From NCBI RefSeq assembly GCF_003574315.2, contig NZ_AP025739.1, forward strand, positions 1,178,001 through 1,242,000: a stretch of DNA of 64,000 bases, given 5' to 3'. Origin of the DNA: Capsulimonas corticalis (GTDB lineage Bacteria > Armatimonadota > Armatimonadia > Armatimonadales > Capsulimonadaceae). Numbering within the stretch: the first letter of the stretch is position 1; each line of letters begins with the position of its first letter. A model generated the notes under the pieces. The model made no database searches and was not told where the DNA came from. It was given only the letters and a program-made list of their open reading frames with translations. Shown in pieces: positions 3,171-35,169 of this stretch. A program made the translations under genes and the position numbers.

Positions 3171-3890
3171 ATGGTAAATCGAAATCGCAGATTCAGTATT
3201 CCAGGATTTACTCTCGTTGAGATCTTGGTTGTTATTGGAATAATCACAGTCTTAGCGTCCATCTTGTTTCCGGTCTTCAACCAGGTGCGCGGCAGAGCGC
3301 GGCAAACGGTATGCGCCAATAACGAAAAGCAGATCGGTCTTGGGTTTCTTCAGTACGCTGAGGACAACGACGAAGCGCTGCCTGCGGCGTACAACATGTC
3401 TCTGACATTCCGAGCGATATTGGAGCCATACATTAAATCCGGGAAAGATGCTCGCTCCGTTTGGAAGTGTCCATCCAACAACTTCCCAAGCCACGATTTT
3501 TCAGGCTATCCGACAAACTACGTCTTGAATAATACGAATGCCCACTTCCTCATCGGCGCGCGGGGACTGCCGCTCGGCGCGGTCGGCGAGACCTCCGATA
3601 AGATCCTGATGGTGGAGTTGAAATACAGGGTGTGGTCGGACTACAATTCGCCAGGATGGGGATCGGCGCCAAAGTCCGTGGCGACGCTGGGCAATTGGGG
3701 ATGGGCGCAAGTCGCCCACGGCGGACGCTGGAACTGCCTGTTTTGTGATGGGCATGTCAAAGCGATGAAGCCGACACAGACCATCACGCCGGTCAACCAT
3801 TGGACTTACAGCTGCGACAGTCCAGACCCCGACACTCCGGTCGAGCCGATGCTGTCCGCGATGCATTGGCTGGAAGTCGCAAACCCTTGA
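3171..3890 (+). CDS. DUF1559 prepilin-like protein
   Basis: A 239-aa protein with a short basic leader, the prepilin cleavage motif (GFTLVEILVVIG) and a single hydrophobic helix, followed by RGRARQTVCANNEKQIGLGFLQYAEDNDE, the DUF1559 signature. Near the C-terminus is H-GGRWNCLFC-DGHVK, the H-x9-DG motif of this family. It is probably processed by a prepilin peptidase and displayed at the membrane; the true role is unknown. The start is supported by GGGGGAAA about 8 nt upstream. Its N-terminus is more divergent than those of the other copies in the window (VEILVVIGIITVLASI instead of [16 protein letters not shown]). Confidence 0.88.
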   Translation: MVNRNRRFSIPGFTLVEILVVIGIITVLASILFPVFNQVRGRARQTVCANNEKQIGLGFLQYAEDNDEALPAAYNMSLTFRAILEPYIKSGKDARSVWKCPSNNFPSHDFSGYPTNYVLNNTNAHFLIGARGLPLGAVGETSDKILMVELKYRVWSDYNSPGWGSAPKSVATLGNWGWAQVAHGGRWNCLFCDGHVKAMKPTQTITPVNHWTYSCDSPDPDTPVEPMLSAMHWLEVANP

Positions 3891-8955: not shown

Positions 8956-9132
8956 GAGAGGGCGACCACTTCCAAACAATTTTCTGGACTTCACGGGAAT
9001 GGGTGGAGATGAATGAGAGGCGATGGCTTATCAACAAAATGAGGCCCAGGGAAATACCCATTCCCCGGGCCATCGGTTTTTCCGCCACTTCGGCAGGCCA
9101 CCACGTTTAAGCGCGCGGTTCATTCATTAGAT

Positions 9133-9201
9133 CGCCGTGTTTTACTGTTAAACTACCCTTGCATATGGAGCAAGGGAGGGGAGATGCGCCCCCATCCGAC
9201 A
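9133..9201 (-). other. Circularly permuted tRNA-like sequence 3
   Basis: Read on the minus strand: anticodon-stem 3' strand TGTCG, a T-arm-like hairpin (GGGGG/CCCCT with a 7-nt loop that lacks the TTC consensus), acceptor 3' strand CCCTTGC, then TCCA, a 3-nt spacer, acceptor 5' strand GCAAGGG (7/7 pairs), TA, D-arm GTTT-AACAGTA-AAAC, and CGGCG which can pair with TGTCG. So all arms of a tRNA can form, but the two halves are in reversed order. The anticodon loop would be formed only after joining the two ends. Discriminator T and the D-arm look glycine-like. The T-loop is degenerate, so it may be a relic. Confidence 0.5.
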
Positions 9202-9250: not shown

Positions 9251-9477
9251 CTGGAGTAATAATCTCAGCCTGGTGTGGAACGCTCGACGCCTCTACCATG
9301 TTGGGCTACCTCCGCGAACGCGGACGCTGGAGTGCAGCGCCCGACCTATTGGTGCGGAGGGCAGGGCTCGAACCTGCACTATTTTCGAACGCGCCGTAAA
9401 AAAGAGTCTTAGCCTTAGCTTTTACTCACAGAGAGATTGTACCCGGTGAAGTCAACGATCGGGATAAACACGAATAG
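9251..9477. repeat. Direct repeat copy A (contains permuted tRNA-like sequence)
   Basis: About 200 bp that recur at 11538-11733 in the same orientation, with close identity over the outer parts (from CTGGAGTAATAATCTCAG to GGGATAAACACGAATAG). Copy A carries about 30 bp more between the CCA and the acceptor 5' strand. The two copies flank the ECF-sigma/ankyrin gene, so they could be a tandem duplication scar, attachment sites or conserved intron-like flanks. Confidence 0.85.
9283..9389 (-). other. Circularly permuted tRNA-like sequence A
   Basis: On the minus strand the order is TTCGA (possible anticodon-stem 3' strand), variable nucleotides, a canonical T-arm (GCAGG-TTCGAGC-CCTGC), acceptor strand CCTCCGC, ACCA, about 34 nt of spacer, acceptor 5' strand GCGGAGG (perfect 7-bp match), T8-A9, a canonical D-arm (GCCC-AACATGGTAGA-GGC) and TCGAG, which pairs with TTCGA (one wobble). 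No normal-order partner for either half is found nearby. After ring closure and cutting this would give a full cloverleaf. The flanks are repeated at copy B. Confidence 0.6.
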
Positions 9478-9958: not shown

Positions 9959-11521
9959 ATGAACAAGGATTATAAAGAAGATAAGCGGCGCCCGGAGGGA
10001 TCGATCAGAAAGCTCATTGATCGTTCCGTTAACGGGGACAGGACGAGTTATGACGAGCTCGTCCGGCGATTTCAGCATATGGCGATTGCGTACGGCTGCT
10101 CTATAATGAGTGATCGCGAGAGCGCCGAGGATGCAGCGCAAGAAGCGTTTGTGGAGGCATTCCTTCACCTCGACAAACTTCAGGATCCCGCTGCATTTCC
10201 CGGCTGGTTTCGAACGATCTTATTCCGGCAATGCCATCGCATTTTGCGGCGTAAGAAAGTCGAAACCGTTCCGCTGGAAGCATGCACCCTGGTTTTAGAA
10301 GTCCTTGGGCCGGCGCATGCGGTCGAACTTAATGAAACTCGTGCTGAAGTAAGAGCTGCAATTGCCAATCTTGCGGAACCTGAGCGACTGGTGGTGACTC
10401 TCTATTATCTCAGCGATTACTCAGTCGCGGAAATCGCATCTTTTCTCTCGCTTCCGACCAGTACCGTGAAGAAACGTCTTCAATCCGCGCGACGCAAGCT
10501 TAGGGAAAGGATCCTTCAATTGATGCCTGAAGTCATAAACCATGAAAAAGAGGAGAGGGACAGAGCGTTTGCTAGTCGTGTCGCTGATATGCTGAACGCC
10601 GCCTTATTGGGACAGGAGCAAATTGTGCATGATCTGCTCAATGCCGATCCCGCATATGCGAACGTAACTGGAGAATACGACACCACTCCCTTACATAATG
10701 TGGTTCAGTCGGGAAATGTGAAGATTGCCGAGGCGCTCATTGCGGCTGGCGCCGACGTCAACGCCAAGTATAACCGTACGGGCCATACGCCTCTCTCATG
10801 GGCGATAACCTGTGGGCAAGATAGCAGCGGCGTTGCCGAGGCGCTTGTGCGAGGCGGAGCCGTGCTCGACCTCTGGTGCGCCGCAGGCTTGGGCAAAGAG
10901 GATGTCGTCAGGTCTTTTTGGGATGCGCAAGGAAATATTGTCGATCAACCGTCATATAGCGGGAGCAGTCGCTATGATTCCGATGGAAATCCACTTCCAC
11001 GACCACCGTCGTCGACTGTTGACATGATCTCGGATGCGCTTTATATATGCAGCCGCAATGGGCATATCGAAGTGGCTCGCTGGCTGCTCGATCATGGCGC
11101 GGATGTACGGTTTAAAGCGTTTGCCGCGGGCACTCCACTGCATTGGGCTTATTTTTCCGGAGTAAACGCCCTTGTCGAACTTCTCATAGAGAGGGGATCT
11201 GATCTCAATACGCTTGAAAACTTCCATAATTCGACACCGCGCGAGTTCGGAATTATCGAAGCTTCCGGATTAGGACTTCTTGCCCGTGTTACCGGAATGC
11301 TGGATACCGGATTGGCCGAGGCAAACGCATGGTCTAGTCAAACCACGGCGCTTCATGAGGCTGCCCGCTTCGGCCATTTGGAAATCACCAATGTCCTTTT
11401 GAGCCACGGCGCTAATCCATTGCAAACCGACGCGAATAACAAGACTGCTCTCGACCTAGCGAGAGAGCGTGGACATACTCCTCTGATCGATCTGCTTGCG
11501 GCAAGGCAAGTATCCGTTTAA
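9959..11521 (+). CDS. ECF sigma factor fused to ankyrin repeats
   Basis: A 520-aa fusion. Residues about 15-85 are sigma region 2 (DELVRRFQHMAIAYGCSIMSDRESAEDAAQEAFVEAFLHLDKLQDP, GWFRTILFRQCHRILRR) and about 135-180 region 4 (LAEPERLVVTLYYLSDYSVAEIASFLSLPTSTVKKRLQSARRKLRE). From about 215 onward there are at least five ankyrin repeats (TTPLHNVVQSGNVKIAEALIAAGADVNAK, HTPLSWAITCGQ, GTPLHWAYFSGVNALVELLIERGSDLN, TTALHEAARFGHLEITNVLLSHGANP, KTALDLARERGHTPLIDLL). It probably directs RNA polymerase and uses the ankyrin part for protein contacts in place of a separate anti-sigma. GGAAGCAG precedes the start. Base composition looks less GC-rich than its neighbours and the gene sits between direct repeats, both compatible with transfer. 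Confidence 0.88.
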   Translation: MNKDYKEDKRRPEGSIRKLIDRSVNGDRTSYDELVRRFQHMAIAYGCSIMSDRESAEDAAQEAFVEAFLHLDKLQDPAAFPGWFRTILFRQCHRILRRKKVETVPLEACTLVLEVLGPAHAVELNETRAEVRAAIANLAEPERLVVTLYYLSDYSVAEIASFLSLPTSTVKKRLQSARRKLRERILQLMPEVINHEKEERDRAFASRVADMLNAALLGQEQIVHDLLNADPAYANVTGEYDTTPLHNVVQSGNVKIAEALIAAGADVNAKYNRTGHTPLSWAITCGQDSSGVAEALVRGGAVLDLWCAAGLGKEDVVRSFWDAQGNIVDQPSYSGSSRYDSDGNPLPRPPSSTVDMISDALYICSRNGHIEVARWLLDHGADVRFKAFAAGTPLHWAYFSGVNALVELLIERGSDLNTLENFHNSTPREFGIIEASGLGLLARVTGMLDTGLAEANAWSSQTTALHEAARFGHLEITNVLLSHGANPLQTDANNKTALDLARERGHTPLIDLLAARQVSV

Positions 11522-11537: not shown

Positions 11538-11733
11538 CTGGAGTAATAATCTCAGTCTGGTGTGGAGCGGACGACGCCTCTACCGTTTTGGGCTATCTCC
11601 GCCTATGGTGCGGAGGGCAGGGCTCGAACCTGCACTATTTTCGAACGCGCCGTAAAAAAGAGTCTTAGCCTTAGCTTTTACTCACAGGGAGATTGTACGC
11701 GGTGAAGTCAATGATCGGGATAAACACGAATAG
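11538..11733. repeat. Direct repeat copy B (contains permuted tRNA-like sequence)
   Basis: Second copy of the repeat at 9251-9477, same orientation, lying just after the ECF-sigma/ankyrin gene. Identity is nearly complete over the T-arm side and the distal flank; the differences cluster in the D-arm/anticodon side and in the missing spacer. Confidence 0.85.
11570..11645 (-). other. Circularly permuted tRNA-like sequence B
   Basis: Same order as copy A on the minus strand: TTCGA, T-arm GCAGG-TTCGAGC-CCTGC, CCTCCGC, ACCA, a 3-nt spacer (TAG), GCGGAGA (6 of 7 acceptor pairs), TA, D-arm GCCC-AAAACGGTAGA-GGC, then TCGTC, which pairs only partly with TTCGA. The short CCA-N3 connector matches that of element 3 (9133-9201), which argues that the permuted order is real and not a chance assembly. 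The weaker pairs suggest this copy is decaying or uses other joining points. Confidence 0.5.
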
Positions 11734-20141: not shown

Positions 20142-20876
20142 TTACGAGAACAAGTAGGCAAAGAGGGCGTCGCCGAGCTTTTTGTCGGGCGCTTCGGTGG
20201 CGTTCGCTTCTTCGCGGGCGAATTTGACTGCTTGCTGGAGCTTCTCGACGCGATCGCCCAGTTCCTTGACGCGGCTGGCGGGCAGCGCGCCGCTGAATTT
20301 GACCGTTTTCCAGTAGCCGACGACGACATCTTCGTGGAAGACTTCGACCTGCGCGGGGTGCTTTTCGGTGGCTTCGGCTTTGACGTGGTTGCGCGGGACC
20401 TTTTTGGTCTTGGCGGTCTGCACGGCTTCGGTCACGAAGGTATCGGAGCCGGCGTCGTAGGACCAGGTCTCGGAGGGATCCAGGGTCGGCAGCTTCTTGA
20501 CGAACGTTCCCAGGTCGACTAACTGCTTCTCCAGGAACAGCAGATAAGTAGAGGGAACATCGGATAAGAGCGTTTTGCCGTCGACGATGACGTCCGCTTT
20601 GGCGACGCAGTTGGCCCAGTCCTTGGTCGCGGTGACATCGAATAGCTTGGTCAGGATCTTCGCCGTATCCTTGATGACCGTGTCCGCCGAGGCCTGCACG
20701 CGGGTAACTTCGGATGGGAACACTTCGCCCTCTTCGTCGCGGGGCTGGTATGTGCGCGAAATGCCCGTCAGCAGGCTCGGCTTTTGAAGTAAGTGGTGCG
20801 CGTCGGTCAGTTCCTGAAACGACTTCGCCTTGACGCCCTTTTCGATGGCGATGATTTGATTGAGTTTTGCTGTCAT
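20142..20876 (-). CDS. Conserved protein of unknown function (actinobacterial DUF7873-like)
   Basis: A 244-aa protein with very regular sequence: MTAKLNQIIAIEKGVKAK, then SFQELTDAHHLLQKP, GISRTYQPRDEEGE, LFDVTATKDWANCVAKADV, YLLFLEKQLVDL, KVPRNHVKAEATEKHPAQVEVF, VGYWKTVKFSGALP and a terminal AVKFAREEANATE. I recall nearly the same blocks in Streptomyces hypothetical proteins (DUF7873), from memory only. The strict conservation suggests an enzyme or phage/defence-linked protein, but no motif betrays its role. AGGAAG precedes ATG 20876; the longer frame upstream is unlikely. No signal peptide or membrane segment. Confidence 0.8.
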   Translation of the reverse strand: MTAKLNQIIAIEKGVKAKSFQELTDAHHLLQKPSLLTGISRTYQPRDEEGEVFPSEVTRVQASADTVIKDTAKILTKLFDVTATKDWANCVAKADVIVDGKTLLSDVPSTYLLFLEKQLVDLGTFVKKLPTLDPSETWSYDAGSDTFVTEAVQTAKTKKVPRNHVKAEATEKHPAQVEVFHEDVVVGYWKTVKFSGALPASRVKELGDRVEKLQQAVKFAREEANATEAPDKKLGDALFAYLFS

Positions 20877-26252: not shown

Positions 26253-26472
26253 TTTTCCGCGCGCAAGTTTCCGGAGCAAATGCGTTCGTCGCAGCGATGG
26301 CGCTCCGCCAGTGAGCTGTTACGCACTCTTTAATGGATGGATGCTCGTGATCCTACCTCCTGGGTTCTTCGCGCCAGCGCCGCTTCACGTCCGCAGGCCC
26401 ACAGCGGGGCCGGAGATACTGTTCCTCTCGTACTGATGTATGTATGCTCCGAAGATCGGGGCGCGCGGAAAA
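26253..26472 (-). ncRNA. Chimeric RNA element with 23S sarcin-ricin loop and L11-binding domain
   Basis: The outer arms form 12 perfect base pairs (TTTTCCGCGCGC at 26461-26472 with GCGCGCGGAAAA at 26253-26264, minus strand). Inside, the hairpin 26411-26451 presents the universal sarcin-ricin sequence AGTACGAGAGGA (26423-26434) on a 9-bp stem. Then comes a GGCCC/GGGCC hairpin, then 26308-26363, read on the minus strand as CCAGGAGGTAGG ... TTAAAGAGTGCGTAACAGC and CACTGG, which is the L11-binding domain of 23S rRNA (about 1051-1108 in E. coli). In the ribosome these two elements together bind translational GTPases. Here they are on one 220-nt RNA and in reversed order. I infer a ribosome mimic or decoy. 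It lies at the 3' end of the tRNA array. Confidence 0.7.
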
Positions 26473-26476
26473 GGGC

Positions 26477-26603
26477 TTGCCTCGCGCAAGTCCGGGAAGC
26501 TGTTGTTCGCACGCAGGATTTGAACCTGTGACCTTTTGCTTATTCGGCAAACGCTCTACCACTGAGCTAGTATGTAAGCTTCCCGCGTCGGGGCGCGAGG
26601 CAA
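26477..26603 (-). ncRNA. tRNA-like structure with extended acceptor stem
   Basis: The core 26505-26576 has a canonical D-arm (GCTC-AGTGGTA-GAGC), anticodon stem TTTGC/GCAAA with loop CGAATAA (G instead of U33) and a T-arm CAGG-TTCAAAT-CCTG, but the acceptor strands TACATAC and GTGCGAA hardly pair and there is no CCA. Instead the molecule continues into an 8-bp stem (GGGAAGCT/AGCTTCCC) and an 11-bp stem (TTGCCTCGCGC/GCGCGAGGCAA). So it is probably not charged; it may be a decoy or a scaffold. It sits 4 nt before the 23S-like RNA. Confidence 0.65.
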
Positions 26604-26624
26604 ATCGTATTCAGTTGTCAAAAA

Positions 26625-26712
26625 TGGCGGAAGGCATAGGATTCGAACCCAACTCCTTGCGGAGCGCAATGTTTAGCGGACATGCCGTCGGACCCGCCGA
26701 CGCTTACCTTCC
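26625..26712 (-). tRNA. tRNA-Ser(GCT)
   Basis: Class II tRNA: acceptor GGAAGGT/GCCTTCC, discriminator G, encoded CCA, long variable arm, T-loop TTCGAAT. The anticodon loop reads CCGCTAA, so position 33 is C instead of the usual U. Confidence 0.8.
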
Positions 26713-26803
26713 ACGATGTGCAATCACTCGTTTACCGTGGCAATTTGAAACTCGTCCTCGTAAATGATGCGCCCTGGCGTATCAGAAATGACAATATTCA
26801 AGT

Positions 26804-27091
26804 TCACTCCATATTTTCGAGTAGGGTGATGTAGAGATCCAGTTTTTGAACGACTTCCGTCTTCAGAGCGGATTCCTTAAACCAAGTGATCGCTTTTTCA
26901 TCATTTCCACTTTGATAAAGCGGAGGGATCGGCAGATGCTCTTCAAACCATGCGTATGCCTCCCGATAGGCGTCGTTTTCGACTTCGGTCAGCTTCTTGT
27001 CACGCACGAGAAACCAGACGGAGACAAAGACTCCATAGGGCATTTGCGTATGCGGGCTAATCGCATCCGTGCAGTAGCGAAAATATTTCAT
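26804..27091 (-). CDS. Hypothetical protein, 95 aa
   Basis: A small acidic protein between two Ser tRNAs of the array. It begins MKYFRYCTDAISPHTQMPYG and has WFEEHLPIPPLYQSGNDEKAITWFKESALK, helical with many aromatic residues. No known motif and no signal peptide. The pattern DEKAITWFKESA is reminiscent of small conserved phage or toxin-linked proteins but I cannot assign it. It reads in the array direction and could be made from the same transcript. Confidence 0.6.
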   Translation of the reverse strand: MKYFRYCTDAISPHTQMPYGVFVSVWFLVRDKKLTEVENDAYREAYAWFEEHLPIPPLYQSGNDEKAITWFKESALKTEVVQKLDLYITLLENME

Positions 27092-27101
27092 GGCTGCTTG
27101 T

Positions 27102-27187
27102 TGGAGGAAGGCGCAGGAATCGAACCCGACTCCTCACGGAGCGTAATCTTTTCAAGAGACCCCGCCGCCCAGCGGCGCTCACCTTCC
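27102..27187 (-). tRNA. tRNA-Ser(TGA)
   Basis: Class II tRNA with acceptor GGAAGGT/GCCTTCC, encoded CCA, loop CTTGAAA (anticodon TGA, U33 present) and T-loop TTCGATT. The discriminator base is T rather than the usual G of serine tRNAs. Confidence 0.85.
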
Positions 27188-27207
27188 TTATATGTATTGT
27201 CAAAAGT

Positions 27208-27297
27208 TGGCGGAAGACACAGGATTCGAACCTGACTCCATTACGGAGCGCAATCTTTTCGAGGGATGCCGCCGGACCCGCCGGGCGCTTGTCTTCC
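27208..27297 (-). tRNA. tRNA-Ser(CGA)
   Basis: Class II tRNA with acceptor GGAAGAC/GTCTTCC, discriminator G, encoded CCA, loop CTCGAAA (anticodon CGA), T-loop TTCGAAT. The anticodon stem is weak (one mismatch next to the loop). Confidence 0.85.
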
Positions 27298-27319
27298 GTT
27301 TTGTGTATTTCCTCTCAAG

Positions 27320-28024
27320 TCATTCGCGCTTTGCCGAGGCGATCAGCGCGCGGCGCTGCCCCCAGCCTGGGAAGGCGGCGGGGTAGGTTTCCAGTTCAAT
27401 CGTGCGGAAATATCGTCCGAACAACGCTTCCATCCATTCCACTTGAGGCGCGATCATGTGAGCGTGAACGCTCTTGCCGCTTTCTTCCGTGTAACTCCAG
27501 AGAATCCCCGTCACTGATATCTCGCCGGGCAAAACACTCTGCACCTGGAAAGGCAGATTGACGCCGGAGAGAAGGCGCGGATCCGCGAGCGGGACAAAAC
27601 AGCGGCCGGTGGGCGCGGTCCACAGGGCGAGGTTCGCCGCCAGGGTCTCCAGCTCCGACATCGACGATACGTAACCGTACGCATACCACATGCACGAAAC
27701 AAGGTCCCAGCGGTCGCGCCATTCGGGCGCGGGGTCCAGGTAGCTGCGTTCGTAAAACGTCACGCCGGGGTTCGCTTCCCGCGCTAACCGCAGCATGTCG
27801 GGCGACAAATCCAGACCCGCACGCTCCACACCGGGAAAACGGCTCAGAAAGAACCCGGTTCCACAAGCGACATCGAGCCAGGCTGGACTCCCCTCCAGCA
27901 GCCGAGCGAGAACTTTCAGTTCGTGCGCGGTATCGGACCTCGTTGTGTCCGACATCAGAAATTTCTCGTCATAGGAGCCGGAGTAAGCTTTGTTGTACAA
28001 CGCTAAAAGCTGTTCTTGATTCAT
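27320..28024 (-). CDS. Class I SAM-dependent methyltransferase
   Basis: A 234-aa protein starting MNQEQLLALYNKAYSGSYDEKF. The SAM-binding motif I is WLDVACGTGFFLSRF, followed by GLDLSPDMLRLAREANPG (acidic residue of the second strand), then WDLVSCMWYAYGYVSS. The substrate (small molecule or RNA) is unknown; placed within the tRNA array it might act on tRNA, which is only an inference. A longer frame upstream to GTG 28141 exists without a ribosome binding site close to it. The gene lies between tRNA-Ser(CGA) and tRNA-Arg. Confidence 0.75.
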   Translation of the reverse strand: MNQEQLLALYNKAYSGSYDEKFLMSDTTRSDTAHELKVLARLLEGSPAWLDVACGTGFFLSRFPGVERAGLDLSPDMLRLAREANPGVTFYERSYLDPAPEWRDRWDLVSCMWYAYGYVSSMSELETLAANLALWTAPTGRCFVPLADPRLLSGVNLPFQVQSVLPGEISVTGILWSYTEESGKSVHAHMIAPQVEWMEALFGRYFRTIELETYPAAFPGWGQRRALIASAKRE

Positions 28025-28192
28025 CGTCTCTGGGAGCCCTTTCACGATGGCGAGACATGCATCGCTCATGCCGATCGCCGTTTCAGCAAGCGGATAAACA
28101 TAGCCGTACGCTGCGCCAAAATGAATATCCTTCTTACGCACAGAGATTAGGCAATATTACTCCTCGCTGATGAGGTCGCTCCCCAAGATAAT

Positions 28193-28268
28193 TGGCGTCC
28201 TCGACAGGATTTGAACCTGTGACCTCGACCTTCGCAGGGTCGCGTTCTCTCCGCTGAACTACGAGGAC
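28193..28268 (-). tRNA. tRNA-Arg(GCG)
   Basis: Acceptor GTCCTCG/CGAGGAC, discriminator G, encoded CCA, D-arm GTTC..GAAC, stem CGACC/GGTCG with loop CTGCGAA (anticodon GCG), T-loop TTCAAAT. All arms pair well. Confidence 0.85.
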
Positions 28269-28279
28269 ATATCAGAACA

Positions 28280-28368
28280 TGGCGGAAGGCGTAGGATTCG
28301 AACCCAACTCCTCACGGAGCGCATTTCTTTCCAAGAAAGCCGCCGGACCCGCCGAGCGCTCACCTTCC
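28280..28368 (-). tRNA. tRNA-Ser(GGA)
   Basis: Class II tRNA with acceptor GGAAGGT/GCCTTCC, discriminator G, encoded CCA, loop TTGGAAA (anticodon GGA), T-loop TTCGAAT. It completes a set of four serine isoacceptors in this array. Confidence 0.85.
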
Positions 28369-28386
28369 GTGTCTTTCGTTTTTAAG

Positions 28387-28459
28387 TGCCCCCAGCAGGA
28401 CTCGAACCTGCGAATGACGGTATGTAACACCGCTGCCATAGCCGCTAGGCGATGGGGGC
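28387..28459 (-). tRNA. tRNA-Val(TAC)
   Basis: Acceptor GCCCCCA/TGGGGGC, discriminator A, no encoded CCA (CTTA follows), D-arm GCC..GGC, stem GCGGT/ACCGT with loop GTTACAT (anticodon TAC), T-loop TTCGAGT. Confidence 0.85.
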
Positions 28460-28464
28460 GAATT

Positions 28465-28538
28465 TGGCGAGACCGATGGGACTCGAACCCAGACAGGCTG
28501 AGCCAAAATCAGCCATGCTGCCGTTACATCACAAAGGA
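28465..28538 (-). tRNA. tRNA-Gln(TTG)-like, mismatched acceptor stem
   Basis: Anticodon stem GCTGA/TCAGC with loop TTTTGGC (anticodon TTG) and T-arm with loop TTCGAGT are fine, and CCA is encoded. But the acceptor strands TCCTTTG and CGGTCTC pair at no more than three positions, two of them wobble. The 5' half resembles that of the neighbouring Asn tRNA. Either a recombinant relic or a molecule with another role. Confidence 0.6.
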
Positions 28539-28568
28539 ACGTCGACAACGACTCTATTGAATTTTGAT

Positions 28569-28643
28569 TGGCTCCCCCGCCAGGATTCGAACCTAGACAC
28601 ACTGATTAACAGTCAGTGATTGCTGCCATTACATCACGGAGGA
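28569..28643 (-). tRNA. tRNA-Asn(GTT)
   Basis: Acceptor TCCTCCG/CGGGGGA, discriminator G, encoded CCA, stem ACTGA/TCAGT with loop CTGTTAA (anticodon GTT), T-loop TTCGAAT. Confidence 0.85.
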
Positions 28644-28646
28644 ACA

Positions 28647-28721
28647 TGGGCGCGGTGGCGGGAATTGAACCCGCTATTCTCGGCTTATGAGGCCGGCGTC
28701 TCTCCGTTTGACTTCACCGCA
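28647..28721 (-). tRNA. tRNA-Met/Ile2(CAT)
   Basis: Acceptor TGCGGTG/CACCGCG with a T-G first pair, discriminator C, encoded CCA, loop CTCATAA (anticodon CAT), T-loop TTCAATT. Whether it is elongator Met, initiator or a lysidine-modified Ile tRNA cannot be read from the sequence. Confidence 0.8.
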
Positions 28722-28734
28722 TCGTCGTTTTATG

Positions 28735-28807
28735 TGCCCTTAGCGGGATTCGAACCCGCACTGGTCGATGTTTAAGATCGATGCCTCTGCCGTTGGGCTA
28801 CAAGGGC
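28735..28807 (-). tRNA. tRNA(TAA), class I, nominal Leu
   Basis: Acceptor GCCCTTG/TAAGGGC, discriminator A, no encoded CCA, D-arm GCCC-AACGGCAGA-GGC, stem TCGAT/ATCGA with loop CTTAAAC (anticodon TAA), five-nucleotide variable loop and T-loop TTCGAAT. Leucine tRNAs normally have a long variable arm, so the identity is uncertain. Confidence 0.8.
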
Positions 28808-28822
28808 ATGTTTTATGTCGGG

Positions 28823-28895
28823 TACTCCCGCCGGGGCTCGAACCCGGATCACACCCTTATAAGGAGTGCGCATTGACCGATTATGCAACGGGAGC
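28823..28895 (-). tRNA. tRNA-Ile(TAT)
   Basis: Acceptor GCTCCCG/CGGGAGT, discriminator A, no proper encoded CCA (CCC follows), stem CACTC/GGGTG with loop CTTATAA (anticodon TAT), T-loop TTCGAGC. Confidence 0.85.
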
Positions 28896-28900
28896 GTAAG

Positions 28901-28974
28901 TGCCGCTGGAGGGAGTCGAACCCCCAACCTTCTCGTTCTAAGCGAGACGCCTCTACCAATTGGGCTACAGCGGC
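28901..28974 (-). tRNA. tRNA(TAG), class I, nominal Leu
   Basis: Acceptor GCCGCTG/CAGCGGC, discriminator A, no encoded CCA, D-arm GCCC-AATTGGTAGA-GGC, stem TCTCG/CGAGA with loop CTTAGAA (anticodon TAG), short variable loop, T-loop TTCGACT. It would read CUA, but it lacks the long variable arm of leucine tRNAs. Confidence 0.8.
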
Positions 28975-28982
28975 ATAATTTC

Positions 28983-29065
28983 GGAGGCCCTCATCCCCGC
29001 CACCCGCAAGCGGGTACCCGGTTCTCCCAATTCAGGGAGAAGGGGCCGGGGGGTGAGGGCCTCCC
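28983..29065. repeat. REP-like palindromic repeat
   Basis: GGAGGCCCTCA ... TGAGGGCCTCC ends enclose inner stems CCCGC/GCGGG and TTCTCCC/GGGAGAA. The same unit occurs, longer, at 33654-33814 and shorter at 29447-29497, all within the tRNA array. Confidence 0.8.
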
Positions 29066-29071
29066 CTCTTC

Positions 29072-29305
29072 TCACACATCCGAAGCGCGCCGTGTTTCAC
29101 GGTAATCCCGGCTGCGCTCCATCACATAGGCTTCCGGAAGCGCCGTGCCGACGGAAATGACGGTCCAGCCGTTTTTGCTCTTGTCGGGCTCGGTGAGCGC
29201 GACGTTTTGGCCGATCACCGCGTGGCGCTGAGGGATCCAGGCGACCTGCGCGACGCTGCCGCGCTGGAGGCCGCATTGGACATAAAGTCGTTCATATCCA
29301 GACAT
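29072..29305 (-). CDS. Hypothetical protein, 77 aa
   Basis: A small basic protein (MSGYERLYVQCGLQRGSVAQVAWIPQRHAVIGQNVALTE) with a beta-rich pattern; no recognised domain. AAGGAACG lies 8 nt before ATG 29305, a good start. It is encoded inside the tRNA array, between tRNA(TAG) and tRNA-Val(GAC), in the same direction. Similar small proteins are common in phage tRNA regions, but I cannot name a family. Confidence 0.65.
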   Translation of the reverse strand: MSGYERLYVQCGLQRGSVAQVAWIPQRHAVIGQNVALTEPDKSKNGWTVISVGTALPEAYVMERSRDYRETRRASDV

Positions 29306-29360
29306 TGTGGCGTTCCTTTCTTGTTGTGTTAAATCTCATCGCAATCTATAATCGCGCTAT

Positions 29361-29435
29361 TGGTAGGCCATGCGGGAATCGAACCCGCGATCTTCTCCAT
29401 GTCACGGAGACGCTTTGCCACTGAGCCAACGGCCT
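29361..29435 (-). tRNA. tRNA-Val(GAC)
   Basis: Acceptor AGGCCGT/ATGGCCT, discriminator A, encoded CCA, D-arm GCTC..AAGC, stem TCTCC/GGAGA with loop GTGACAT (anticodon GAC), T-loop TTCGATT. The loop matches that of the Val(TAC) tRNA, GTTACAT, which supports the call. Confidence 0.8.
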
Positions 29436-29446
29436 ATGCTTTCTTA

Positions 29447-29497
29447 CACCCCTCTCCCAATTTTGGGAGAGGGGCCGGGGGTGAGGGCCTCGGCCCT
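29447..29497. repeat. REP-like palindromic repeat (short form)
   Basis: CCCCTCTCCCAATTTTGGGAGAGGGG hairpin core followed by CCGGGGGTGAGGGCCT, as in the other two copies in the array. It lies immediately after the rtcB stop and may act as its 3' hairpin. Confidence 0.75.
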
Positions 29498-30276
29498 CAG
29501 TCCTTGTAAGGATCGAACTCGTTCTCGCCGGCCATCGCCACGCCGAGGGGCGTGAGGGTGTGCAAAATCTTGATCGAGTTCTTGTGGTGCTCCAGCACCT
29601 CCGGGAGACGCTTGTAGCAGTGCGGCGACTCATCCGTGCCCGCGCCGCGCAGCTCCACGCGCTCTTTCTGGACCCATTCGCGCATCATCTCCTTGGAGAC
29701 GACGCCCGGTTTGATCACTTCTCCCGTACGCCGGTTGACTTTGCCGCGCGCGGCGGTCCGGCTCATCACACGGCCCGCGCCGTGGACGGTGGAGTAAAGC
29801 GACTGACTCGCTTCCTCCGATTCGACTCCTTCGAGAATGACGGACTTGTCGCCCATTGAGCCTCCGACAAATCCCTTCTGACCTGGAAAGGCCGGGGTGG
29901 CGCCCTTGCGAACGACCCAGAGATCACGGCCGCCGTGGCTCTCCTTCCACGCGTAGTTATGGTGATTGTGAATCTCCTCCACAATCTTCGCGCCCAGGAG
30001 ACGCGCCACTTCCGCGCAGACCCAGTCCCGTCCAGCGTAGGCATACCGGCCCGCTAGAGTCATACAGGCGAGATAATCGGCTCCCAGGGAGGAACGGACA
30101 TGCAGCACCAAAGGGTCTACATCCATTCCGTCCTGCGCGCCGCCCGCATTCAAAAAGTAAGTCGCCGTCTTATGTCCCAGACCCCGCGATCCAAAGTGGA
30201 CTCCCACCCAGACCCGGTCCTTCTCGTCGGCGAAGTAGGGTGGAATGCTGGCGAGGTGGCATTCCTGCTCCTTTTC
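29497..30276 (-). CDS. rtcB: RtcB RNA ligase, C-terminal exon
   Basis: About 259 codons that continue rtcB after the group II intron. They begin near EKEQECHLASIPPYFADEKDRVW, then VGVHFGSRGLGHKTA (metal-binding His in HFGSRGLGH), NHHNYAWKES, KGATPAFPGQKGFVGGSMGDKSVILEG, and SLYSTVHGAGRVMSRTAARG, which holds the histidine that is guanylylated. So both GTP- and Mn-binding motifs are intact. Together with the exon at 32657-33094 the product has about 405 aa, a normal RtcB size. RtcB joins 2',3'-cyclic phosphate (or 3'-phosphate) to 5'-OH ends, as in tRNA splicing and RNA repair. The exon border is set by reading frame and may be off by one codon. The frame shown upstream of 30276 is intron sequence. 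Confidence 0.88.
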   Translation of the reverse strand, partial: EKEQECHLASIPPYFADEKDRVWVGVHFGSRGLGHKTATYFLNAGGAQDGMDVDPLVLHVRSSLGADYLACMTLAGRYAYAGRDWVCAEVARLLGAKIVEEIHNHHNYAWKESHGGRDLWVVRKGATPAFPGQKGFVGGSMGDKSVILEGVESEEASQSLYSTVHGAGRVMSRTAARGKVNRRTGEVIKPGVVSKEMMREWVQKERVELRGAGTDESPHCYKRLPEVLEHHKNSIKILHTLTPLGVAMAGENEFDPYKD

Positions 30277-30291
30277 CAACAAGCCCCCTCC

Positions 30292-30325
30292 GAACCGTGC
30301 TGGATACTTTCGCATCACACGGCTC
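30292..30325 (-). ncRNA. Group II intron domain V
   Basis: 34-nt hairpin with outer stem GAGCCGTG/CACGGTTC, a bulge and a GAAA-type tetraloop (TGCGAAAGTA). This is the catalytic core hairpin of group II introns and lies just upstream of the 3' splice site. Confidence 0.88.
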
Positions 30326-30334
30326 TCCAGTAAC

Positions 30335-32125
30335 CTATGTCTTTGACTGCGCACGAATGGGTTTCCCGTACTGGATATCATCATGGCATTTCTGGCACAC
30401 GACCAAGGTTTTCCGCTTACGGGCTGCCATTATTTGCATCCAAAGCGGTTTCTCCTTTTGTCCCTTTACCTTGAGGTCTGCAAGTTTACGGATGTGGTGG
30501 ACTTCCACTTTCTCCGCAGATTCACATATCTCGCACTTGTCCGCAAGTAGTCGTTTTACCAACTCCGTGCGTTTCGGCACATAGGCATGGGTCGTTTGAT
30601 CGTAGATTGTTGCTCCCGCTGCTTGTCTCAGGGCCAGTCCGCCGAAGTGGACTTCCAGAGGCGTTTTACCTTCTCTTGGTACGATGCACTGGATCACTTT
30701 TCGTGGTCCGTGCTCCGTATCGATGGTTGCAATGTATCGTTGAGCAATCGCATTTACCGTCGCCTTGTGCTTGTGGGCCAAGGTCTTCAGTAGAGACGTG
30801 TGCATATACCAATACAGTCTTTGCAGCCATGCGATGTTTTCCGCCAGTTGGTAATACTGTACATATCCCCGATACTCACTTTGATAGTCAGAGATGATTG
30901 TGAAGTCATCATCGTTGACCCTCTCTGCGCGATGAATCGGTTTGCCGTTCTTGGCGTACAGGCTGCATCTGTCGTTTATCACATCGACAGGGACTAGTAG
31001 TCCGATTCGGGATGACATCGTTCGACGGCTGGTGCTATCGTGTTTGTCATTTACCTGTCGGCCTGCTATTTCATAGCCGAGGAACCTTGCCCGTCCTGTT
31101 TGAGTGTGCGTAACCAGTGTCTTTTCCTCAGAGAGTTCCAGACGCAGTTTTTCGTTGAGAAAACTCTTGAGGCGCTGCTTGATTTCTTCGGCTTCTTCCT
31201 GTGGCCCCGCGAAGCCAAGAATGAAGTCATCTGCGTATCGAATATAGCGTAGCCTCCGATAGTTTGGGTCATATTGATCCGTTGATGGTAGCTTCTGATA
31301 CTGATGAAACAGCTCAGATGCTCCGTGACGGTCTCCATTAGCCCGTAACGTTTCGGCGCGTCCCGCGAGACGATTGTACTCAGGGTTCTTCCTTCGTTTG
31401 TTTCCACGGTTGTATTCCTGGAGTAATGTTGCTTCTACAAACTTGTCCAGTTGATCCAGGTATATGTTGGCGAGTATGGGACTAATAACCCCACCTTGCG
31501 GTGTGCCGCTCAGCGTCGGGTTGTAATGCCATCTCTCCATATATCCTGCCTGTAGCAGTCCCTCAACGAGTTTGATGAAACGGTTATCATGGATGTCTTT
31601 CTTCAGCACCTCCAGCAGAATCTGATGGTTGATGTTGTCGAAGCATCCTTTGATGTCCCCTTCCACGAACCATTTGGTGCCCACCCACGTTCTTGCGATT
31701 GCGGTGAGTGCCGTATGGCATCCTCGTTTCGGACGGAAGCCGTGTGAATGGTTGGAGAACTGCGGTTCGTAGTATGCTTCCAATATAGAGCGCATAACTT
31801 CTTGCAGCAATTTATCCGTCCATGTCGGGATGCCGAGAGGTCGTGTTTTCCCATTTTTCTTTGGGATATGCGTCCGTCTCACGGGTGTCCAACGATATCT
31901 TTCGTATCGAAGGTCTTCGATGATGGCATTGATTCTTGCCATCGACATTCCGTCTACAGTGTCTTCCGTCGTTCCTGGGGTCATGGCTCCATCATTGCGA
32001 TAGATTCTGCCATAGGCCCGTAGGTACAGGTCTGGATTGTATAGCTGTCTGTAGACATCCTCCAGTGGCAACTTTCGTTGGCCTCTGTCTCTGATAATGT
32101 TCAACACATCTTCGGCTGTTCGCAT
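30335..32125 (-). CDS. ltrA: Group II intron reverse transcriptase/maturase with HNH domain
   Basis: A 596-aa intron-encoded protein. Reverse transcriptase blocks run from about residue 85 (RRTHIPKKNGKTRPLGIPTWTDKLLQ) through HGFRPKRGCHTAL, EGDIKGCFDNINH, GTPQGGVISPILANIYLD and the active site IRYADDFILGF near 300. A maturase/thumb region follows (SEYRGYVQYYQLAENIAWLQRLYWYMHTSLLKTLAHKHK), then a C-terminal HNH endonuclease (CEICESAEKVEVHHIRKLADL ... CQKCHDDI) with two Cys pairs. All key residues are present, so retrohoming looks possible. GAGG lies 8 nt before ATG 32125. Inserted within rtcB. Confidence 0.95.
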   Translation of the reverse strand: MRTAEDVLNIIRDRGQRKLPLEDVYRQLYNPDLYLRAYGRIYRNDGAMTPGTTEDTVDGMSMARINAIIEDLRYERYRWTPVRRTHIPKKNGKTRPLGIPTWTDKLLQEVMRSILEAYYEPQFSNHSHGFRPKRGCHTALTAIARTWVGTKWFVEGDIKGCFDNINHQILLEVLKKDIHDNRFIKLVEGLLQAGYMERWHYNPTLSGTPQGGVISPILANIYLDQLDKFVEATLLQEYNRGNKRRKNPEYNRLAGRAETLRANGDRHGASELFHQYQKLPSTDQYDPNYRRLRYIRYADDFILGFAGPQEEAEEIKQRLKSFLNEKLRLELSEEKTLVTHTQTGRARFLGYEIAGRQVNDKHDSTSRRTMSSRIGLLVPVDVINDRCSLYAKNGKPIHRAERVNDDDFTIISDYQSEYRGYVQYYQLAENIAWLQRLYWYMHTSLLKTLAHKHKATVNAIAQRYIATIDTEHGPRKVIQCIVPREGKTPLEVHFGGLALRQAAGATIYDQTTHAYVPKRTELVKRLLADKCEICESAEKVEVHHIRKLADLKVKGQKEKPLWMQIMAARKRKTLVVCQKCHDDIQYGKPIRAQSKT

Positions 32126-32656
32126 CCCGCGTACCTCTGTGCATTGCCCATTAGGTTACCTGTTCCCCTTTGCCCTGTGAACGGCTTTCCCGCTCTCCCT
32201 GGTAGGTCGTCACTCCTACGACTACTATGGGAACTCCGTGGCCATAGGAGTCGCCTCCCGTAGGCCATCCTGCGTTCCGTCAACATACTACGTAATAGCG
32301 CGATTTAGGTGTCCGTTCGCTCTCTTGCGTGGGATCATTTCCCACATCTTCTGCTCTACGGAGATTGCGATTGCCGACATTTTAAGCATTCGCATAGAGC
32401 ATCAGTGACTACAGGCGTTGTATCACAGGGCCTACGTATAGACCACCGAGAGCTGGATTTCGAGCAGTATAGCCCTAACCATGTCGCGCGGGCTTTGCAG
32501 AACAACAGCGCAAACGCCTTCTTCTGTTTTCCGCTTTCCCAACAGGCTGTGTTGGCTGATCCGCTTTCGCAGATCAGTTGGTTGGGTAGCCCCGACACTT
32601 TTCTCCGAGTATCGGCTGGCTCAGCCAGCAATAGTATGCTGCATTACGCAGCGCCC

Positions 32657-33094
32657 CAGGTCCACATAGTGGTTTCCCGAACCGATCGTTCCCAGCTGGT
32701 TCCGGGCGGTCTGCTTGAGGGTCTTGACGGCGTGCAGCTTCCACGTTTCGTCGTCAAACAGCTCATGGTCCACGGAGGTCGCGTTGTTGCGGCCTACGCC
32801 GAACGACAAATTGCTCCACACCATATCCATGATCTGTCTGATCTTCCGGCGAACCTCGCTTGCCGGAATGTCCAGACGCGCGGCTTTGTTGCCGCAGCCA
32901 ATGTCAAAACCCACCCCGGACGGGCTGATCTTATCCTCGTAGGCGACCACGCCGCCGATGGGAACCGCGTAGCCCTTGTGATGGTCCGCCATCAGCGCCA
33001 CGTGAGCCGCATCTTTTGAACAGTTCATAATTTGCAGCATCGCGCCTTCGTCGACAGGGTCTCCCCACACCGGTACTCCCGCAATCATTTCCAT
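32657..33094 (-). CDS. rtcB: RtcB RNA ligase, N-terminal exon
   Basis: 146 codons starting MEMIAGVPVWGDPVDEGAMLQI, with LMADHHKGYAVPIGGVVAYEDKISPSGVGFDIGCGNKAARL, where the conserved Cys of the Mn site lies in FDIGCGN, and ending GTIGSGNHYVDL at the intron border. AAAGGAGG lies about 7 nt before ATG 33094. Without splicing the frame would run into intron codons and stop soon after. The gene reads in the array direction, between tRNA-Gly and tRNA-Val(GAC), next to an RNA ligase gene, which points to a role in repair or maturation of the tRNAs here. Confidence 0.88.
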
Positions 33095-33173
33095 CCGCGT
33101 GTCCTCCTTTCGGATAGATTTTCTTACCCATCCGAACTTGCCGCATCAATGCGGTCTTTTTGCCCATCGGGCA

Positions 33174-33247
33174 TGGAGCGAAAGAGGAGAATCGAACTCC
33201 CATCATCAGCATGGCGTGCTGGCGTCCTACCATTGGACGACTTTCGC
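33174..33247 (-). tRNA. tRNA-Gly(GCC)
   Basis: Acceptor GCGAAAG/CTTTCGC, discriminator T (as expected for Gly), encoded CCA, D-arm GTCC..GGAC, stem CCAGC/GCTGA with loop ACGCCAT (anticodon GCC; position 33 is C instead of U), T-loop TTCGATT. Confidence 0.8.
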
Positions 33248-33262
33248 AGATCTTTATAAAAA

Positions 33263-33338
33263 TGGCGCCGTCTGACGGATTTGAACCGCCGGCGCGAGGT
33301 TCTTCAAACCCCCGCTCTACCACTGAGCTAAGACGGCG
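33263..33338 (-). tRNA. tRNA-Phe(GAA)
   Basis: Acceptor GCCGTCT/AGACGGC, discriminator G, encoded CCA, D-arm GCTC..GAGC, loop TTGAAGA (anticodon GAA), T-loop TTCAAAT. Discriminator G differs from the usual A of bacterial Phe tRNAs. Confidence 0.8.
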
Positions 33339-33365
33339 TATCGAACATCTTCTTATTGTCAGAAT

Positions 33366-33453
33366 TGGCGGGCCGGGTAGGATTTGAACCCACGCGGGCA
33401 TTGCTGCCGGTAGTTTTGGAGACTACTCCCTTCAGCCGCTTGGATACCGACCC
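33366..33453 (-). tRNA. Class II tRNA with CCA (Trp) anticodon
   Basis: Acceptor GGGTCGG/CCGGCCC, discriminator G, encoded CCA tail, D-arm of the Ser/Leu type (TCCAAGCGGCTGAAGGGA), stem GTAGT/ACTAC with loop CTCCAAA (anticodon CCA), long variable arm around GGCAGCAATGCC, T-loop TTCAAAT. It would read UGG but looks like a serine-type class II body, so it may mischarge or be a chimera like the known allo-tRNAs. Confidence 0.75.
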
Positions 33454-33478
33454 ACGGATCTAACAACAATGCAAAATT

Positions 33479-33555
33479 TGGGGCGCCCGGCGGGATTTGA
33501 ACCCGCGTTCTTCAGTGTCACAGACTGACGACTTGACCACTCGTCTACGAACGCC
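33479..33555 (-). tRNA. tRNA-His(GTG)
   Basis: Acceptor GCGTTCG/CGGGCGC preceded by an extra G at position -1, discriminator C, encoded CCA, stem TCAGT/ACTGA with loop CTGTGAC (anticodon GTG), T-loop TTCAAAT. G-1 with C73 is the histidine hallmark. Confidence 0.88.
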
Positions 33556-33565
33556 ATAAGTTTTC

Positions 33566-33639
33566 TGGTCGGGGCGACAGGAATCGAACCTGCGATGGAA
33601 AGTCCCAAACTTTCTGTTATGCCACTTCACTACGCCCCG
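33566..33639 (-). tRNA. tRNA-Pro(TGG)
   Basis: Acceptor CGGGGCG/CGCCCCG, discriminator A, encoded CCA, stem GAAAG/CTTTC with loop TTTGGGA (anticodon TGG), T-loop TTCGATT. The C1-G72 start is typical of proline tRNAs. Confidence 0.88.
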
Positions 33640-33653
33640 AGATTTTTAGAATT

Positions 33654-33814
33654 GGAGGCCCTCATCCCCGCCACCCGCAAGCGGGTACCCGGTTCTCCCA
33701 ATTCTGGGAGAAGGGGAGCAAGAGTTTTGTTTTTAGAGATCAAAAATCTCACTCCTATTCCGACTCCCCCTCTCCCAAAATTGGGAGAGGGGGCCGGGGG
33801 GTGAGGGCCTCCCC
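33654..33814. repeat. REP-like palindromic repeat (long form)
   Basis: GGAGGCCCTCATCCCC ... GGTGAGGGCCTCC ends, containing inner hairpins TTCTCCC/GGGAGAA and CTCTCCCAA/TTGGGAGAG. Same sequence family as 28983-29065 and 29447-29497. It lies just after the RNA ligase stop. Confidence 0.8.
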
Positions 33815-33824
33815 TCTCCCCTCC

Positions 33825-34841
33825 TCACACGTCCCGACTATCCGTCACGTTTTTCGCGAACAAGTACGGGTCTCCGATGTACTTCATGCAGACACGACCG
33901 ACTTTCGGGTCGCGCCGCTCCGCGATCGGCTTCACCACGACGCCTTCGCGGATGTGCTCCGCGCCGAGGGTGGTGTTTCCCTCGGAGAGCGCCTTGATGA
34001 TTCCCAGCGCGTACGGCCCTTCGTAGAGGACCGGGACCATTGCGACGCCGAAGCTCGCGCAGACTTGCCGGAACTCAAACGCATTCAGATAGTGACCGTC
34101 GATCATCAGGTCGAAAGCTTGAAACCCGCCGGCGCCCGATGCGCCGTAGTGCAGGCTCTGCACTTTGCTCCCGAAGATCTCGCCGTAGAGAACCACCTGA
34201 CGATGGTCCTGCGCGAAGTGCTCCAGCAGCGAGACGACTTCCGGGATCAGCGCGGGCGCCCAGTAGACGCTGTGCGCCAGATTTTCCGGACGCTCGCGGC
34301 GCACTTGCCGGGAGCCGGCCATCCACTCGCCCTCAACGATGCCGATACGCGAGTTGGTCCCATGGATCTTCTCCGTCACCACCACGTCCTCGCCGGCGGC
34401 CAGAACGTCCGGGTAGTTGCGCAGGTTCTCGACATCCGTGTACTCCTCAAAGAGAGGATGCGGCGCTAGCGCGTCGGTCCTCTGCGCCCAGAAGCTCACC
34501 GGCGGCTCGTACTTGGTGACGCCGTAGTGCTCCGCGACGTCGGTCCCGAGCTCCCAGCGAGGGTCCTCCCGCTCGACGATCACGCCGAAGCTCGGCTCAC
34601 TGCGAAGACGGGCGCACCGAACGCGGCCTTTGCTCAGATACTGGGTGATTCCCCAGCGATCCGAGTGCTCCGCCGGGATCATGGCGTCGATGGGAATATA
34701 GGTCACTAAATCCCCCGCCGCGTATTTGCCCTTCGGAACCACGCACTGCCATCCTTTGATCTGCGCCAGCTCCAGCGCATCAGCGTTGTGATGCGGGCTG
34801 ACTTCATCGATCTCGCAAACTTCAACAACTAAAGTGGACAT
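33825..34841 (-). CDS. RNA ligase, DRB0094/Rnl5-type
   Basis: A 338-aa ATP-dependent RNA ligase. The N-terminal OB-like part (MSTLVVEVCEIDEVSPHHNADALELAQIKGWQCVVPKGKYAAGDLVTYIPIDAMIP) resembles the DRB0094 family. The adenylation motif is VVTEKIHGTNSRIG (Lys in KIHGTN), motif III-like VVLYGEIFG, motif IV REGVVVKP and motif V CMKYIGDPY. GGAGGACAGGG before ATG 34841 fixes the start; longer frames overlap tRNA genes and are not real. In the array it lies between tRNA-Tyr and tRNA-Pro, in the array direction, near rtcB, so two ligases with different end chemistry are present: 3'-P/5'-OH (RtcB) and, probably, 3'-OH/5'-P (this one). Confidence 0.9.
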   Translation of the reverse strand: MSTLVVEVCEIDEVSPHHNADALELAQIKGWQCVVPKGKYAAGDLVTYIPIDAMIPAEHSDRWGITQYLSKGRVRCARLRSEPSFGVIVEREDPRWELGTDVAEHYGVTKYEPPVSFWAQRTDALAPHPLFEEYTDVENLRNYPDVLAAGEDVVVTEKIHGTNSRIGIVEGEWMAGSRQVRRERPENLAHSVYWAPALIPEVVSLLEHFAQDHRQVVLYGEIFGSKVQSLHYGASGAGGFQAFDLMIDGHYLNAFEFRQVCASFGVAMVPVLYEGPYALGIIKALSEGNTTLGAEHIREGVVVKPIAERRDPKVGRVCMKYIGDPYLFAKNVTDSRDV

Positions 34842-34883
34842 CCCTGTCCTCCGATCTTCGTTCCAAAACGACGTGTTCTCTGC

Positions 34884-34969
34884 TGGTGGGTCAGGTGGGA
34901 TTCGAACCCACAACCCGTGAGGGACTTGTTTTACAGACAAGCGCAGCGACCCGTATCTGCCTCCAACCC
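34884..34969 (-). tRNA. tRNA-Tyr(GTA)
   Basis: Class II tRNA with acceptor GGGTTGG/CTGACCC, discriminator A, encoded CCA, stem CTTGT/ACAAG with loop CTGTAAA (anticodon GTA), variable arm TCCCTCACGGGTT, T-loop TTCGAAT. A long variable arm is normal for bacterial Tyr. Confidence 0.88.
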
Positions 34970-34991
34970 ATATTGCGTCGTTCTTGTTTTT

Positions 34992-35066
34992 TGGTAGCCT
35001 CGGCGGGACTCGAACCCGCTCCCGATCTGTGAAAGAGATCAATCCTAACCCATAAACGACGAGGCC
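34992..35066 (-). tRNA. tRNA-Glu(TTC)
   Basis: Acceptor GGCCTCG/CGAGGCT, discriminator A, encoded CCA, stem GATCT/AGATC with loop CTTTCAC (anticodon TTC), T-loop TTCGAGT. Confidence 0.87.
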
Positions 35067-35093
35067 ACGATGCGTACTGATTTTCGAATTTCT

Positions 35094-35169
35094 TGGTGGG
35101 GCCGACAGGATTTGAACCTGCGACGAGCCGCTTAAAAGGCGGCTGCTCTACCACCTGAGCTACGACCCC
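35094..35169 (-). tRNA. tRNA-Lys(TTT)
   Basis: Acceptor GGGGTCG/CGGCCCC, discriminator A, encoded CCA, D-arm GCTC..GAGC, stem GCCGC/GCGGC with loop CTTTTAA (anticodon TTT), T-loop TTCAAAT. First tRNA of the array in the direction of transcription. Confidence 0.88.

Follow-up and report, generated by a model that had tools for sequence, protein, structure and literature searches.

The tRNA-like element at positions 11570–11645 of the window (the whole 64,000-nt stretch of Capsulimonas corticalis DNA that was analyzed) is a copy of the first domain of an RNA found in bacteria and phages. This RNA keeps a two-domain permuted architecture, covaries in its helices, is linked to genes encoding the DUF7873 protein (PF25283) and occurs in phage genomes. 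We lean, with some reserve, toward the interpretation that it is a stable tRNA mimic bound by DUF7873 and acting as a scaffold or decoy, possibly together with Ro60-like proteins. Within the window, copy A and element C make up one RNA of ∼400 nt with two tandem circularly permuted tRNA-like domains, and the element under study, copy B, is a duplicate of the first half of that RNA. The features are as follows.

11538–11733 (−), copy B: duplicate of domain 1 and its 5′ flank, containing the element 11570–11645
11617–11633 (−), T-arm of copy B, GCAGG-TTCGAGC-CCTGC
11596–11616 (−), acceptor hairpin of copy B (CCTCCGC, ACCA, TAG, GCGGAGA), 6/7 pairs
11610–11616 (−), acceptor 3′ strand of copy B, CCTCCGC
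11606–11609 (−), ACCA of copy B
11603–11605 (−), TAG of copy B
11596–11602 (−), acceptor 5′ strand of copy B, GCGGAGA
11576–11595 (−), D-arm of copy B, tRNA-Leu type
9251–9477 (−), copy A: domain 1 of the two-domain RNA, acceptor 7/7, 38-nt loop beginning ACCA
9139–9193 (−), element C: domain 2 of the RNA of copy A, acceptor CCCTTGC-TCCA-TAT-GCAAGGG, 7/7 pairs
9102–9111 (−), conserved CTTAAACGTG motif behind domain 2
9043–9071 (−), terminator-like hairpin of 11 pairs, 3′ end of the RNA formed by copy A and element C
20142–20876 (−), DUF7873 (PF25283) gene, the sole one in the genome

Read on the minus strand, copy B runs in the order T-arm, acceptor 3′ strand, ACCA, TAG, acceptor 5′ strand and D-arm, which is the permuted order of copy A, as the initial annotation had proposed. 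Its counts of 3 nt between the CCA and the acceptor 5′ strand (TAG, 11603–11605) and of six acceptor pairs out of seven were likewise confirmed, the acceptor of copy A forming 7/7. Element C reads TCCA followed by TAT, and its connector is therefore also 3 nt long, equal in length to that of copy B, in agreement with the earlier claim. The stem described as a weaker anticodon stem is indeed weaker in copy B (5/7 pairs between 11641–11647 and 11568–11574, versus 7/7 in copy A), but it is a connecting helix rather than an anticodon stem, and no anticodon loop was found. Model R1, our model of domain 1, matches copy B with 67.7 bits (11572–11635) and copy A with 66.6 bits (9285–9379). ARAGORN called 18 tRNAs in the window and none at copies A and B or at element C.

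Copies A and B are identical at 125 of 128 nt in one block across the T-arm half and share 89% identity over 65 nt more, with an acceptor loop that is 31 nt longer in copy A. This near-identity indicates recent duplicates rather than independent inventions. The statement that the three elements share an architecture and differ in sequence thus holds for the architecture and fails for the sequences of A and B, and element C, which had been taken for a third independent copy, belongs to the same RNA as copy A. A DNA search of the genome returned copies A and B as its only two matches. No domain 2 is present behind copy B; with its acceptor mismatch and weakened helix, it resembles a partial duplicate more than a second gene under selection, and this stand-alone domain 1 may be a relic, perhaps in decay. 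The T-loop of element C lacks TTC and its D-arm reads TAGTTTAACAGTAAAAC. A simple promoter scan at copies A and B found no promoter; a TACAAT can be read by eye. Single-strand folding energies are weak (z −1.1 to −2.4) and were not relied on. The ORF between copies A and B (9959–11521, plus strand) encodes an unusual fusion of sigma-70 regions 2 and 4 to ankyrin repeats. Farther along the window, 18 tRNA genes cluster at 26505–35169 (minus strand) with further tRNA-like matches among them, a group II intron match falls in the region of this cluster (30235–30327) and a fragment of LSU rRNA lies near it (26286–26383).

A DNA search of 41 genomes, comprising this genome and its relatives, detected homologues in three other genomes. 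Past domain 1, their alignment continues into another permuted tRNA-like domain, which is followed by a TTAAACG motif and then by a terminator-like hairpin. We extended the survey with a DNA pattern made of the T-arm and the D-arm, in which acceptor pairing was not required, and retrieved 48 stretches from the genome contig collection. ARAGORN called an ordinary tRNA, always tRNA-Leu, across the D-arm of 15 of them and none in the other 33, from which we dropped L058 (six pairs, no DUF7873) and kept 32 loci. Allowing for alternative registers, the acceptor forms 7/7 pairs in 30 of these loci, six in L040 and five in L035. Judged by their record titles, they belong to Actinomycetota, Myxococcota, Planctomycetota, Cyanobacteria, Chloroflexi, Deinococcales and Armatimonadota. 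One locus, L079, is titled Comamonas sp., whereas its element and DUF7873 gene nearly match Myxococcus, and the title may be wrong. As E-values of model R1 fail to separate the elements from tandem tRNAs, matches were judged by bit score (∼60 bits or more) or by a site beside DUF7873; the runner-up for R1 in G036, at 51 bits, appears from its spacing to be a tRNA array.

DUF7873 (∼243 aa) is encoded directly upstream of the RNA, on the same strand, in 31 of the 32 pattern-selected loci, the exception being L044, where the RNA is present and no DUF7873 gene adjoins it. Conversely, the 500 nt behind 61 DUF7873 genes contain a permuted domain with a 7/7 acceptor in 52 cases; among the controls, the scan found such a domain in 1 of 3050 shuffles and in none of the 151 upstream segments or 61 opposite strands. 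Among the 41 genomes, R1 reaches at least 66 bits in the same six that encode DUF7873 and in none of the 35 others (Fisher p = 2.2e-7, kinship not corrected). Of the 251 genomes of the phylum sample, seven encode DUF7873, and the seventh (L164) has a domain 1 match at 61.3 bits and a weaker match at the site expected for domain 2.

The C. corticalis protein belongs to PF25283, with 378.2 bits against a cut-off of 27 bits. The distance from its gene is ∼8.4 kb to copy B and 10.7 kb to copy A, the intervening genes are on the plus strand, and no element is found directly behind the DUF7873 gene. The gene and the RNA are therefore separated in this genome, and a function for copy B, a partial duplicate, is doubtful. 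The predicted structure of DUF7873 has a mean pLDDT of 89.5 and a pTM of 0.72. Foldseek searches with this model against the PDB and BFVD returned nothing at E ≤ 0.001; the best viral match was A0A7M1RW91 (probability 1.0, TM 0.47/0.61, E 0.013). VIA-align ranked TolC best (Z 6.8, rmsd 14.3, 164 aligned), with a Z in the common range, searches of PHROGs and NCBIfam gave nothing useful, and our literature search found no paper on DUF7873. Since its fold matches nothing known, RNA binding by DUF7873 is assumed from the genomic linkage.

The domain 1 alignment (45 rows) has 97.0% of its cells paired and the domain 2 alignment (29 rows) 97.8%, percentages that are biased upward because the rows were chosen for paired acceptors: they came from a scan requiring at least six acceptor pairs, the window rows being added by hand. 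As regards the acceptor, the 32 pattern-selected loci are free of this bias. Both alignments omit loci in which the scan found nothing or found a single, domain-2-like hit, as well as repeated entries of one genome and cores that are identical, and the row of element C is cut off at its 5′ end. Double changes occur in 11 of 15 pairs of domain 1 and in 14 of 16 pairs of domain 2, and none of 500 shuffles reached the covariation score of either domain. Covariation is strong in the acceptor and T-stems; the domain 1 D-stem is nearly invariant and tells little on its own. Among 18 full-length RNAs, double changes affect 40 of the 51 predicted pairs, including three helices that enclose domain 2. 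The order of the arms is thus kept, with covariation, across at least seven phyla and phages, which supports the suggestion of the initial annotation that the permuted form is under selection rather than the result of one chance rearrangement. The argument that had led there, three copies differing in sequence, does not stand, as A and B arose by duplication and C forms the second domain of the RNA to which A belongs. Random substitutions in all arms, named beforehand as the sign that would speak against selection, are not what the homologues display: they covary.

DUF7873 genes are also present in phages (73 records), plasmids (4 records) and viral contigs (22). Phendrix, NiceHouse and Rhizobium phage TM2_3B carry the gene among tRNA genes, and an unannotated gap of ∼450–530 nt follows it. 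R1 scores 41 to 75 bits behind DUF7873 in Racecar, Phendrix, NiceHouse, FBKp24, Ziko and PA-SR01, and less (26.6 to 32.5 bits) in two Rhizobium phages and Vibrio phage K479. Viral and plasmid loci selected by the protein carry a domain with 7/7 acceptor pairs within 500 nt in 19 of 26 cases, and in most of the remaining loci the R1 hits are weaker, more distant or on the opposite strand (0.9 kb away in L153, 1.4 kb in L143). In the Klebsiella phage FBKp24, an annotated 'tRNA-Sup-TTA' (L182:3515–3594) overlaps the R1 match at 3565–3649 behind DUF7873 and could be a portion of domain 2 misread as a tRNA. One viral contig carries a permuted tmRNA (L144:6546–6774; RF04321, 61.5 bits) ∼1.8 kb past its DUF7873 gene.

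The consensus structure places connecting helices at the site of the tRNA anticodon arm, so that the tRNA elbow and acceptor are kept and decoding is apparently dropped. The D-arm motif of domain 1 has the tRNA-Leu form, as all 15 ordinary tRNAs bearing the motif are tRNA-Leu; we relied on this count because the fetching pattern had enriched the isotype reference set in tRNA-Leu. The discriminator of domain 1 is A in 31/31 cellular and 10/13 viral copies. That of domain 2 is T in 25/37, and an isotype comparison of this domain gave no clear answer (Gly best in 11/37). CCA follows the discriminator in 7/13 viral copies of domain 1 and 12/19 of domain 2; the corresponding cellular counts are 6/31 and 2/18.

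Several known RNAs resemble the element. In permuted two-piece tmRNA, the 3′ half of the tRNA-like part is encoded before the 5′ half with the CCA acceptor between them, an arrangement that RF04321 and its relatives have in common with the element. The element differs from tmRNA in its tRNA-type D-stem, and copies A, B and C lack the G3–U70 pair, which is the alanine identity pair. No tmRNA covariance model reaches its cut-off at the elements, the partial cyano_tmRNA matches at L019 and L034 scoring 23.6 and 20.3 bits against a cut-off of 70. The genome also encodes a one-piece tmRNA, and tmRNA was rejected as the identity of the elements on both grounds. Circularly permuted tRNA genes of algae and archaea also place the 3′ half before the 5′ half; they yield full tRNAs with an anticodon, whereas no anticodon was found in the element.

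The nearest known RNA is YrlA, the bacterial Y RNA that partners the Ro60 orthologue Rsr; the likeness extends to the permuted T-arm, acceptor and D-arm and to RNA ends that lie in a long stem replacing the anticodon arm. At a relaxed threshold, the Rfam YrlA model (RF02553) matches copy A with 18.7 bits, aligning T-arm, acceptor and D-arm in order, and the elements of relatives with 23.6–39.2 bits (best in L034), all below the gathering cut-off of 69 bits. YrlA is characterized in PMC8394870 as mimicking tRNA, with a D-arm, a T-arm and an acceptor arm, and Hughes et al. 2020 (PMC7790460) suggest for it a role in RNA decay or anticodon nuclease inhibition. Unlike YrlA, the family of copy A and element C has two tandem domains, with loops that often carry NCCA, and adjoins DUF7873 (31/32) and not rsr (TROVE/Ro60). 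The family is neither YrlA by the Rfam cut-off nor linked to rsr, and constitutes a variant among permuted tRNA-mimic RNAs. Among the papers found in searches on permuted tRNAs and YrlA/Y RNAs, no title or abstract opening describes such a double RNA.

A PF05731 search of the C. corticalis genome found nothing. A 489-aa protein (C1:1457074–1458540), spotted by eye in the ORF list beside YrlA-like RNAs, matched nine TROVE proteins in a profile–profile comparison (98.0% probability, E 1.9e-13), and its profile gave weak hits to two PDB TROVE chains (E 0.004); it is thus Ro60-like and not a member by Pfam's model. In the region L012:7072–10672 of contig C1, the divergent Ro60-like gene has YrlA matches of 43.3 and 31.5 bits alongside, and a further YrlA-like stretch was read by eye. 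One of the YrlA-like RNAs beside this gene differs from the element in having an acceptor closed by GAAA, and the gene and its RNAs lie ∼270 kb from the window elements. Across the 251 genomes of the phylum sample, a Ro60-like protein occurs in six, DUF7873 in seven and both in four (p = 3.2e-6, kinship not corrected). PF05731 was detected in 12 of the 31 element-bearing genomes and P0001-like hits in 18 of the 34 genomes searched, 11 of them weak. TROVE-type Ro is present in 340 phage records. No Ro60-like protein was found in eight RNA-bearing genomes (five of the 31, plus G007, G011 and G018). The link of the element to Ro60 is suggestive, and Ro60 is not required everywhere.

These comparisons bear on what else the element might be. 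It could be a true Y RNA (YrlA) that binds the Ro60 orthologue Rsr and tethers it to a nuclease, with DUF7873 as an accessory. The permuted order common to both, the YrlA scores of 18.7 to 39.2 bits, the divergent Ro60-like protein of this genome and the presence of a TROVE (PF05731) or P0001-like protein in 26 of the 31 element-bearing genomes, weak hits counted, agree with this proposal. We nonetheless consider it unlikely, as every YrlA match stays under 69 bits, the genes linked to the element encode DUF7873 rather than Ro60, eight genomes have the RNA and no Ro60-like hit, the Ro60-like gene of this genome has YrlA-like RNAs of its own 270 kb off, and P0001-type Ro60 occurs in one phage record versus 73 for DUF7873. 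Alternatively, RNase P and RNase Z might cut the acceptor loops to yield a two-piece, two-headed RNA ending in CCA, maybe aminoacylated and somewhat like permuted tmRNA. The discriminator A of every cellular domain 1 copy, the D-arm and discriminator of tRNA-Leu, the NCCA read in all three window copies (A, B and C) and the CCA after the discriminator in 19/32 viral and 8/49 cellular domains would fit such cleavage. Most cellular copies, however, lack CCA, the acceptor loop shrinks to 2 nt in L077 and no tmRNA model attains its cut-off at the elements, which leaves processing of this kind a tenable but minority option in our assessment. The viral CCA may point to processing, for which a passive scaffold would have no use, and was counted against such a scaffold.

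Far less probable is that two ordinary tRNAs meet here at a junction or that remnants of tRNAs came together by chance. Exactly such junctions account for 15 of the 48 pattern hits and the window holds a tRNA cluster, but ARAGORN calls no tRNA at any of the three elements, the acceptors of A, B and C form 7/7, 6/7 and 7/7 pairs, and compensatory changes extend across phyla. For the family, an ordinary tRNA or two-tRNA junction is refuted; copy B, taken alone, may be decaying.

According to the scaffold or decoy model that we favor, the two-domain RNA would be made as a stable RNA and bound by DUF7873. Its elbow and acceptor surfaces would imitate tRNA, domain 1 presumably imitating tRNA-Leu, and an RNA apparently devoid of an anticodon loop could then serve as a scaffold or decoy for tRNA-handling enzymes. 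Ro60-like proteins may take part, in RNA quality control or stress, and the phage copies perhaps guard the tRNA pool. Inhibition of an anticodon nuclease would suit an RNA that resides in phage tRNA clusters and apparently has no anticodon loop. A bolder and rather speculative extension is that DUF7873 and an RNA with two anticodon-less heads (one with tRNA-Leu-like A73, the other mostly with U73) might form a new RNA–protein system, matured by RNase P and RNase Z, CCA-ended, charged or not, that would act on translation, tRNA damage or defense in at least seven phyla and in tRNA-rich phages.

The interest of copy B rests in the family that it revealed rather than in copy B itself. A widespread two-domain permuted tRNA-like RNA has seemingly been overlooked, as tRNA finders miss it and Rfam models score it below their cut-offs, and the stretch is mostly an unannotated gap in the phage records examined. 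DUF7873, to which no function is assigned, gains a likely RNA partner, and the RNA connects the tRNA mimics of the YrlA/tmRNA class with the tRNA clusters of phages. Permutation as a general route from tRNA to scaffold or decoy thereby becomes testable. The hairpin that terminates the RNA at its 3′ end is GC-rich in most members and has a TGGNYAT-like loop, whereas those of L034 and L136 resemble an anticodon arm, with 7-nt loops reading CTGTTAA and CTTGAAA.
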